Source of the DNA: Thozetella sp. PMI_491
Lineage: Eukaryota; Ascomycota; Sordariomycetes; Chaetosphaeriales; Chaetosphaeriaceae
Length of the DNA: 64,000 nt
Direction of reading: 5' to 3'
Assembly: GCA_021432635.1 (NCBI GenBank)
Contig: MU270037.1
Coordinates: 62,001-126,000 of the forward strand
Part shown: positions 15,557 through 17,534 of the stretch, piece after piece
Layout of the letters: every line of letters begins with the position of its first letter
How positions within the stretch are numbered: the first letter of the stretch is position 1
The notes under the pieces: model-generated
The model's database searches: none
Seen by the model: only the letters and a program-made list of their open reading frames with translations
Told to the model about the DNA's origin: nothing
Position numbers and translations under genes: made by a program

Positions 15557-15698
15557 GGGTGCTTTGGCGGAGTTGGTCGTCTGGTGTCCTGCAACGTCGG
15601 TTCATAAAACTGTAGTTCGCAACTACACATGCAGTTGCTCCTACGGTCGCGTGCAAAAAAGCTGGCTGCGCGGGTGGGTTCGAACCCCGCACGCATCG
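15557..15698 (+). other. Possible degenerate tRNA-like sequence
   Basis: Has an A-box-like TGGCGGAGTTGG (15565-15576) and a perfect B-box core GGTTCGAACCC (15677-15687) with a pairing T-arm GTGGG/CCCGC. The flanks GGTGCTT and ACGCATC pair at 6 of 7 positions. However, about 140 nt is long, no clean anticodon arm forms, and a T-run is absent just downstream. Could be a tRNA relic or tRNA-derived element head. Confidence 0.3.
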
Positions 15699-15895: not shown

Positions 15896-16030
15896 GGTTG
15901 CGTAGTCTAGTGGTTATGACCCTGGATTGTAAGTAATACTGAACCACCTACATGTGGAGAAATACTAATCGTCACAGCTGATTGTCAATATCACAATTCC
16001 AGTAGCCCCGGTTCGATCCCGGGCGCGACC
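15896..16030 (+). tRNA. Intron-bearing tRNA, predicted anticodon GTA (copy 1)
   Basis: Acceptor arms GGTTGCG and CGCGACC pair over seven positions (one G-U). D-arm GTC/GAC, anticodon stem CTGGA/TCCAG, T-arm CCCGG-TTCGATC-CCGGG; A box TAGTCTAGTGG and B box GGTTCGATCCC are intact. The 5' half is exactly 37 nt (15896-15932), and a 64 nt intron (15933-15996) follows, the canonical position for nuclear tRNA introns. The loop reads TTGTAA plus T after splicing, giving anticodon GTA (tyrosine). Odd: eukaryotic tRNA-Tyr carries C1-G72, whereas this has G1-C72 and a body more like Gln/Val/His tRNAs. The intron also starts within a GTAAGT context, contains TACTAAT and ends before CCAG, so it mimics a spliceosomal intron. 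Identity could be altered or the gene a pseudogene. Confidence 0.75.
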
Positions 16031-16042
16031 TTCTCTTTTTTT
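16031..16042 (+). terminator. Pol III terminator of tRNA copy 1
   Basis: A T-rich tract ending in seven consecutive T directly after the acceptor stem; a typical RNA polymerase III stop. Confidence 0.7.
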
Positions 16043-16116: not shown

Positions 16117-16302
16117 GGTTGCGTAGTCTAGTGGTAAGCTCGCCAGCCAGTTAACCGTATTTTATATTTGCTAACACCTGGCAGGTTATGACCCTGGATT
16201 GTAAGTGGAAGCCATAGATCTGGTTTGGGGCAATACTAACAGTTGTAGCTGATTGACACAATCAAAAATTCCAGTAGCCCCGGTTCGATCCCGGGCGCGA
16301 CC
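16117..16302 (+). tRNA. Second tandem copy of the same tRNA, with an extra D-loop insert
   Basis: All exonic positions are identical to copy 1 (GGTTGCG ... CGCGACC), and the anticodon-loop intron is again 64 nt (16205-16268) although its sequence is mostly different. Only AATACTAA and AGCTGATTG blocks are shared between the two introns. The copy differs by a 51 nt insert at 16134-16184 in the D-loop, directly after A-box core TAGTCTAGTG. Removing the insert restores copy 1 exactly. TTTT follows at 16303 as terminator. Whether a functional tRNA is made is unknown; the internal promoter spacing is enlarged. Confidence 0.7.
16134..16184 (+). other. Spliceosomal-type intron inside a tRNA D-loop
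   Basis: 51 nt beginning GTAAGC, with a perfect GCTAAC branch-site motif 14-8 nt from the end and ending in CAG. This is the standard layout of short introns in this window. Its excision joins TAGTCTAGTG to GTTATGACC, identical to the uninterrupted copy at 15896. A GCCAG/CTGGC inverted repeat lies near its ends. Confidence 0.7.
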
Positions 16303-17534
16303 TTTTCTTCTTCATCTTTTCTTTTTTTCCTCTCCCCTTCCTTTGTAGCAGCACGTGTTGTTTGTTTGGGTAATAAAGTGTTAGACTGTTTTAGCAAAAG
16401 GTAGCGATCTATTAATGACCACCCTTCGCTGAAGAAGTTAGTTGTTATATATTCTATTTTGCAACTCTAGCTAAGGCAGATATAGTAGGGGAAAAACCCC
16501 CCATTTAAAGCGGTGTAATCCGTTTAGAGTACTAGAAAATAGAAAACCCTCAAAGACCGTGTGGCTCTGCAATGCGGGCTAGTGGTGGGATGGCCGCAGC
16601 CCACATTGCAGGCATTAGATGCCTAGGATGACTTTTTCTGGTCAAGAACCTGAAAACGCAGAGAGAATATGTCACAACAAAACGCGTATTCAGTTGATCG
16701 TATGAAGGACTAACTGTAACACTAGAGGGCAAGATAGATATAAGAGATCTTAATACCTTAAAAGGGGTTCCTTTATAGGAGTGCATCTCCCCTTCTTTTA
16801 TAGAACTTATGAGGCTTACTTGTCTAGCTGCGAGCTCCCTTCTACGTGGCCTTCCTGGGGTTTCCTTGTCCCTAGATTCTGGTGTCTCGCCGATGGGCGC
16901 GCTAGGGCTTTTGTAGTGTGCTGCTCGTGCGTAGGGCTGGCTCTGGCTTAATGCGCAGGCCGAAAGCGCTCTGAGGTCGACCGGGCTCCGGGCCATTACA
17001 TGTACAACCATCGCCAATGCACCTACTGTCCCTAGCGAAGATCGGTTAGGGAGCAAAACAGGTGCCTATTTTGCAGCTCTGAAACTTAAACAAGGTACGT
17101 GATCTTTCCATAAACCTGTCCACATTTGCTAAACCATTAAGATACAATGGAAAATTGCCCTGGAAGCTTTGGAGGATGAGACGAGGCTTCCCTCACTGCT
17201 ACAGTTGATGGCATGGCGGCAGGGTACAAGCGGCTCTAGTCTCCAATGAAGCCCCCTAAGCAAAAGGTTCTCGCAGTATCTAATATAATACGCGTTAACT
17301 ATCTCTTTTTCTTTCCCCTGATTTCAGCCTCCTTTCCACCAACATCCACCATAACTTCCTATTACTTCCCTGCCTTGCAGACCCTGTCCCAGCACCCTAA
17401 CGACCCCATGAATCCTCCCCATCCTAATCAGCACCACTATCATCCTCGGGTACGGTAGGCACTTCGCCCTTGAGACAGCCAATACGGTATCCACGGGAGC
17501 GCAGGCTTCTGCCCTCAGAGCCTCCAAGGTGAGC
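16303..17534. other. Intergenic, one unexplained frame
   Basis: A 168-codon minus-strand frame at 16550-17056 (PVDLRALSACALSQSQPYAR, then a basic GRPRRRELAARQ stretch) has no domain that I recognise and may be part of a dispersed repeat. Otherwise nothing is supported. Confidence 0.35.

Follow-up and report, generated by a model that had tools for sequence, protein, structure and literature searches.

Introduction

Ordinary introns of eukaryotic tRNA genes are located at position 37/38 and are excised by the TSEN/Sen endonuclease. Spliceosomal introns were reportedly described by Bhattacharya et al. in 2000 from the nuclear rDNA of lichen-forming and other ascomycetes, and an mRNA-type intron in the U6 snRNA of fission yeast is said to have been found by Tani and Ohshima. 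According to the accessible text of PMC8527467, rRNA introns of a lichen fungus are spliced and a 57-bp one can be excised from rRNA by yeast; the accessible text of PMC10484740 has the mRNA-type intron of fission yeast U6 as thought to derive from reverse splicing. Precedents are thus available for the splicing of a Pol III transcript (fission yeast U6) and of rRNA (lichen fungi, engineered yeast). Regarding tRNA genes, the available portion of PMC4090602 calls non-canonical introns of eukaryotes rare, names nucleomorphs and a red alga as their carriers, and contains no word beginning with "spliceosom-"; the abstract of PMC11782384 has intron classes reported across all major RNA types, and the text of that paper names archaeal-type ones for tRNA. 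A literature search over partly accessible sources, with most subscription journals and bioRxiv outside its scope, returned no earlier description of nuclear tRNA genes with spliceosomal introns.

Here, we analyse two tandem tRNA-Gln(CTG) genes in a 64,000-nucleotide stretch of DNA (the window) from Thozetella sp. PMI_491, which belongs to contig C23 of a 72.3-Mb genome assembled in 157 contigs. The genes carry GT-AG introns in addition to an ordinary 37/38 intron. Like the introns of ascomycete rDNA, those described here are short, have GT-AG ends and interrupt a structural RNA gene served by a polymerase other than Pol II; unlike the former, which reside in Pol I genes and are few in the repeat, they occur in genes of the Pol III class and are dispersed over 25 of 85 tRNA genes. 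The fission yeast U6 intron resembles them in being mRNA-type and in interrupting a Pol III transcript, but its location is close to the catalytic nucleotides of an RNA of the spliceosome itself, whereas none of the full-length U6 copies found here is split. Ordinary 37/38 introns interrupt tRNA genes too, but at a different position and, in the 41 cases from intact genes, with a length of 7-34 nt and without GT-AG ends. Placement at many sites, and with several introns in one gene, is shared with the tRNA introns of Cyanidioschyzon, nucleomorphs and Archaea as covered in the available text of PMC4090602; however, these are tied to bulge-helix-bulge motifs or, in the Guillardia nucleomorph, are 3-24 nt long. 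Because no earlier report was found and non-canonical eukaryotic tRNA introns are called rare, we regard these introns as being of a known type but located in a gene class not expected to have them.

Results

The tandem tRNA-Gln(CTG) genes

Two tRNA-Gln(CTG) genes lie in tandem in the window, at 15896-16031 and 16117-16303, and their parts are as follows.

15896..16031, + strand: tRNA-Gln(CTG) gene copy 1; cloverleaf with CTG anticodon once two introns are removed; T-run downstream
15896..15928, + strand: copy 1 exon, positions 1-33, from comparison of the copies after intron removal
15929..15977, + strand: copy 1 GT-AG intron at 33/34, 49 nt, with GTAAGT, TACTAAT and CAG
15978..15981, + strand: copy 1 exon, positions 34-37 (CTG anticodon and A37), identical in copy 2 where the adjoining introns differ
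15982..15996, + strand: copy 1 ordinary (tRNA-endonuclease type) intron after position 37, 15 nt
15997..16031, + strand: copy 1 exon, positions 38-73
16117..16303, + strand: tRNA-Gln(CTG) gene copy 2; removal of three introns gives the 72-nt mature sequence of copy 1
16117..16133, + strand: copy 2 exon, positions 1-18
16134..16184, + strand: copy 2 D-loop GT-AG intron between G18 and G19, 51 nt, with GTAAGC, GCTAAC and CAG
16185..16200, + strand: copy 2 exon, positions 19-33
16201..16248, + strand: copy 2 GT-AG intron at 33/34, 48 nt, with GTAAGT, TACTAAC and TAG
16249..16252, + strand: copy 2 exon, positions 34-37 (CTG and A37)
16253..16268, + strand: copy 2 ordinary intron after position 37, 16 nt
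16269..16303, + strand: copy 2 exon, positions 38-73

In copy 2, the insert in the D-loop was found as the initial annotation had described it, with 51 nt at 16134-16184 that start with GTAAGC, include GCTAAC and end in CAG. Its removal restores the contiguous sequence of copy 1, in which the 24-nt junction (12+12) is uninterrupted; none of 16 shifted cuts gave a 12-nt (6+6) junction present in the collected tRNA genes. Sequence comparison after intron removal bore out the further claim that the exons of the two copies are identical, and with all introns out both copies give one and the same 72-nt tRNA, composed of acceptor GGTTGCG/CGCGACC, D-arm, anticodon stem CTGGA/TCCAG around the anticodon CTG, and T-arm CCCGG TTCGATC CCGGG. 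Use of copy 1 as the uninterrupted reference holds at the D-loop and fails elsewhere, given that copy 1 has a GT-AG insert of its own at 33/34 as well as a 37/38 intron. The GT-AG intron of copy 1, the ordinary 37/38 intron in both genes and the genome-wide occurrence of the trait go beyond what had been annotated. The predicted GT-AG splice junctions of the pair join GGTTGCGTAGTCTAGTG to GTTATGACC and CTGGATT to CTGA.

After processing, both copies reach a cloverleaf score of 28.8 with the CTG anticodon, the best intact genes of the genome scoring 31.6. ARAGORN called copy 2 as Gln(ctg) in the form without both GT-AG introns and returned nothing for the unspliced form; for the spliced form of copy 1 it named the anticodon CTA, in disagreement with Gln(CTG). 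A scan of the window by ARAGORN at the settings used and by Rfam at the gathering score reported zero tRNA. Exact matches to the 18-nt 5' end of the gene number just two in the genome, both in the window, and at 3 mismatches there are 28 further places compared to 54 for the reversed control. Two Gln-CTG genes that lack GT-AG introns, with a body resembling that of the window pair, are present elsewhere in the genome (L087); the window pair is therefore not indispensable.

ARAGORN's reading of copy 1 is a tRNA-Tyr(GTA) with a 64-nt endonuclease intron, in which the 33/34 insert would be just part of a long 37/38 intron, leaving the D-loop of copy 2 as the only oddity of the pair. The cloverleaf of the Tyr form scores 27.82, close to 28.8, but the body of copy 1 resembles that of the L087 Gln-CTG genes, which have GGATTCTGA...TTCCA, and the genome has two Tyr-GTA genes whose bodies are different (L045). 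Moreover, CTGATTG follows the AG in both copies and GTAAGT and TACTAAY are retained in both, with intron interiors 60% identical against a shuffled maximum of 62%; and introns of this kind placed far from 37/38 are present in other genes. A tRNA-Tyr with one long intron leaves the conserved CTGATTG, GTAAGT and TACTAAY unexplained, and we reject it as highly improbable.

As regards Pol III elements, the window genes have the B box GGTTCGATCCC and a T-run after each gene. Unspliced copy 2 has an exact A box, since the intron begins with a G that takes the place of G19. Altogether, six introns break the A box before G19, three of them leaving it exact and three leaving one mismatch. The 5' sites of the D-loop introns in L080 and L101, GTGGGA and GTCCGT, are unusual; their first bases leave the A box exact, possibly as a compromise of promoter and splice site. 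Just upstream of the pair, the stretch at 15557-15698 of the window is tRNA-like, with an A-box-like start and the T-arm GGTTCGAACCCC; no convincing cloverleaf fit to it was found with or without a GT-AG cut, and it is perhaps a decayed tRNA gene.

Census of split tRNA genes

Candidates were drawn from an Rfam model, for which 63 of 1545 candidates were scored with at least 51 hits, from T-arm-plus-terminator patterns and from a Lys T-arm pattern, which together take in part of the T-arm types and part of the listed places. T-arm pattern 1 matched 232 times compared to 157 for the reversed control, with places listed from about the first 100 matches, and the other patterns matched 96 versus 78, 41 versus 43 and 45 versus 51 times. 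Because these raw counts are near the controls, genes were recognised afterwards by pairing of the T-stem and the acceptor. The cloverleaf scorer permitted an ordinary 37/38 intron and one further cut; genes split within the T-arm or the acceptor stem would escape the census. The first parse comprised 86 places, and a recount by genome position together with a Lys gene (L143) gave 88, of which 59 were intact and 29 had a cut. The latter were reduced to 25 on dropping the second place of L040 (chance), L013 and window 15557 (neither with a convincing solution) and L132, which has an ordinary 33-nt intron and was counted intact; the intact total went from 59 to 60 because one identical Ala gene had been merged, plus L132. 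Kept outside the resulting 85 are two initiator Met genes (L034/L035), the mitochondrial-like L062, a contig-end fragment (L092) and a Leu-like fragment (L079), whereas a Leu-like body with odd anticodon (L071) is counted among the 85 as intact. The census is incomplete, because no Trp-CCA gene was found in it. At L013 (C17:1011600), matching acceptor ends lie 146 nt apart and none of the splice solutions tried was convincing; at L125, a Phe-like 3' half has no 5' half in the 330 nt upstream when up to two GT-AG cuts are allowed.

On this basis, 26 GT-AG introns were located in 25 of the 85 parsed tRNA genes, the other 60 being intact. The sites are in the D-arm, at 25/26, at 28/29 to 34/35 and in the variable loop. 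None is at 37/38 (0/26), which speaks against their being ordinary TSEN-type introns. The split genes are those for Gln-CTG (two), Lys-CTT (four), Lys-TTT, Leu-TAA, Leu-TAG, Leu-CAA, Leu-AAG, Ser-TGA, Ser-GCT, Ile-AAT, Glu-CTC (two), Gly-TCC, Arg-TCG, Arg-CCT, Pro-TGG, Phe-GAA (two), Asn-GTT (two) and Met-CAT (taken as elongator), with anticodons as assigned by the cloverleaf scorer, from which ARAGORN deviates for 7 of the 25 spliced forms. Of the 25 genes, 20 carry both kinds of intron, GT-AG and ordinary 37/38. Each of the five Lys genes found is split; the dedicated Lys T-arm search at up to two mismatches gave 12 places (control, 9), five of which are the Lys genes. For Leu-TAA, Leu-CAA and Ser-GCT, the census contains split genes only.

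These numbers bear on the suggestion that the split copies are dead tRNA genes with random insertions. Insertions in the D- or T-arm of eukaryotic tRNA genes are, in the available text of PMC4090602, usually taken as pseudogenes, and the genome does have the two Gln-CTG copies without GT-AG introns; but the exons of the window copies are identical, and the ends of the inserts match the splice consensus. The initial annotation had named many degenerate copies as an outcome that would speak for such pseudogenes, and what was found instead are split genes that keep good tRNA exons, with same-site paralogs retaining the splice signals around intron interiors no more alike than shuffled ones. With every Lys gene found being split (five of five) and Leu-TAA, Leu-CAA and Ser-GCT represented by split genes alone, the pseudogene explanation is rejected as scarcely credible.

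Splice signals and intron boundaries

The 26 introns are 48-82 nt long (median 53). GT and AG were imposed when boundaries were chosen and, being conditions of a constrained search, are not evidence by themselves; the +5 base, the branch site and the YAG were not imposed. The +5 base is G in all 26 and the opening is GTAAG in 19; the 3' ends are YAG (CAG or TAG) in 22 and AAG in 4. In 22 of the 26 introns, a branch site CTAAY lies 8-45 nt upstream of the 3' end, compared to a mean of 3.0 and a maximum of 9 in 1000 shuffles. Relaxed to CTRAY, the motif is present in 24 introns, mostly with 9-14 nt from the branch A to the end; the branch sites of L069 (Leu-TAA) and L102 are weak. In the ordinary 37/38 introns of intact genes, which measure 7-34 nt, GT...AG occurs in 0 of 41 and CTRAY in 1 of 41. 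The tRNA GT-AG introns resemble the mRNA introns of the O-acetylhomoserine sulfhydrylase gene in the window in length (48-82 vs 48-74 nt) and in signals: the latter, a small control of four introns from one gene with boundaries set by eye and the main exon identified by match, are 48, 60, 67 and 74 nt long, start with GTAAGT or GTGAGT and end in YAG.

Evidence on the boundaries was obtained in several ways. In a blind scan of cuts ranked by cloverleaf score only, the GT-AG cut came out on top in 7 of 24 split genes (Ile, Leu-AAG, Glu twice, Asn twice, Gly), each having its site pinned by stem pairing. Among the remaining 17, it was tied with the best cut in 8 and below the best in 8; boundaries at loop sites are not fixed by the cloverleaf alone. 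For copy 1 of the window, the GT-AG cut scored 28.8 compared to 29.6 for the best; copy 2 needs two cuts, and the scan tried single ones. In a comparison that does not depend on the cloverleaf scorer, 7 of the 26 introns have a 6+6 nt splice junction that some other tRNA gene contains without interruption, as compared to 0 of 485 shifted cuts; with junctions of 10+10 nt, the number is 5 of 26. The Lys genes provide reciprocal empty sites: the two copies at L054 are split in the variable loop and have intact D-loops, and L081 and L143 have the D-loop split and the variable loop intact, with D-loop junctions that are contiguous in the L054 pair. Similarly, the Leu-AAG gene L089 has two paralogs at L088 without its GT-AG intron. 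ARAGORN assigned the expected anticodon to 3 of 25 unspliced and 18 of 25 spliced forms, and to 133 of 500 sequences with shifted cuts; some tRNA call was made in 352 of the 500.

Six pairs of genes are split at the same site. Their exons and 37/38 introns are 89-100% identical, and their GT-AG introns are 58-62% identical, inside the shuffled range; nevertheless, all 12 GT-AG introns retain GTNNG, CTRAY and AG. Signals kept in diverged interiors would be expected from selection on the splicing signals only or from independent gains at one site. Runs of four Ts occur in 3 of the 26 introns and of five Ts in 1 (shuffled, 3.3 and 0.7), so that no T-run depletion as a Pol III signature was found in these introns relative to shuffles; the five Ts lie in the intron of L069 (Leu-TAA), where they may act as a Pol III stop.

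Although ectopic tRNA introns are known at many positions and sometimes as multiple ones (available text of PMC4090602), cutting by the tRNA endonuclease at a bulge-helix-bulge, as in Archaea, nucleomorphs and Cyanidioschyzon, can be given next to no credence here, since conserved GTNNG, CTAAY and YAG are not expected of such introns and, in a simple test confined to a four-pair helix between two three-base bulges, the four-pair central helix was found in 0 of 26 introns in either of two orientations and three pairs in 2 of 26 each.

Other Pol III genes

At least four full-length copies of U6 (47 of 3441 candidates scored) and at least 24 of 5S (47 of 3737 candidates scored), the latter dispersed over many contigs, were found, all uninterrupted. 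The trait is therefore not common to all Pol III genes; split U6 or 5S copies could have been missed, because few candidates were scored. A decayed U6 copy was noticed at about 460-610 of L141, about 300 bases from an intact U6 gene.

Discussion

Based on the collective evidence, the window tRNA-Gln(CTG) genes are very probably Pol III genes that carry U2-type introns together with a 37/38 intron. The recurrence of the same arrangement in 25 of 85 tRNA genes points strongly to an organism in which the spliceosome serves to mature tRNAs. The initial annotation had already put forward a GT-AG intron of spliceosomal type within a Pol III tRNA gene and an RNA processed by two splicing machineries, and with 26 such introns in 25 genes this is the explanation we favour. 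Read directly from the DNA are the intron positions, the splice signals, the restored cloverleafs, the uninterrupted sites elsewhere and the retention of signals while interiors differ. From these, we infer Pol III transcription, removal by the spliceosome and the order of the two reactions. Pol III would transcribe the tRNA-Gln(CTG) genes; in the precursor, GTNNG at the 5' site, CTAAY at the branch site and the YAG would then be recognised by the spliceosome, which would remove the GT-AG introns, and tRNA endonuclease and ligase would remove the 37/38 intron to give the mature tRNA. Many of the GT-AG-split Pol III transcripts would likewise need cleavage by the tRNA endonuclease. Reverse splicing is a possible route for the arrival of the GT-AG introns.

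With so many of its tRNA genes interrupted by introns of mRNA type, the cell probably needs its mRNA splicing machine to make some of its tRNAs. It also appears likely, if with less assurance than the presence of spliceosomal introns as such, that this need is obligatory, in that Lys codons AAA/AAG, Leu codons UUA/UUG and Ser codons AGU/AGC would be readable only after removal of a GT-AG intron. Isoacceptors encoded by split genes only would need the spliceosome, and the capacities for mRNA splicing and translation would hence be physically coupled. Dependence of the Lys, UUA/UUG and AGU/AGC codons on GT-AG splicing follows if the census holds, and it is put conditionally because the census, with Trp absent, is incomplete.

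If true, the proposed maturation pathway breaks the rule of spliceosome-independent tRNA splicing, as expressed in the available text of a 2026 review (PMC13149111). Many of the introns are adjacent to tiny exons, the first exons being as short as 14 nt, and the transcripts are expected to have neither cap nor poly(A). Such Pol III cases constitute a test of the spliceosome's need for Pol II and for exon definition. They also raise the question of whether splicing load regulates translation. On the practical side, a large part of the tRNA genes in such a genome can be overlooked or misnamed by tRNA finders.

Further observations

The Leu-like tRNA bodies L071 and L079 have odd anticodons (TGG and CGG, respectively, by ARAGORN) and are perhaps pseudogenes. 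L062, a mitochondrial-looking tRNA within an 816-kb contig, is perhaps a nuclear copy of mitochondrial DNA. Similar tRNA-like T-arms (GGTTCAACTCCCACT...) followed by a T-run are found at L103, L104, L113 and L114, possibly belonging to a tRNA-derived repeat.

Pfam matches in the window include a fungal-specific transcription factor domain and a fungal lectin. Between 25360 and 43400, the window has the O-acetylhomoserine sulfhydrylase gene, with FUB7 of Fusarium among the best PDB matches, an alpha/beta hydrolase like homoserine O-acetyltransferase and an aspartokinase-like ORF (both named by eye), and, close together with these, an MFS transporter and a fungal transcription factor; we take this gene group to resemble part of a fusaric-acid-type gene cluster.
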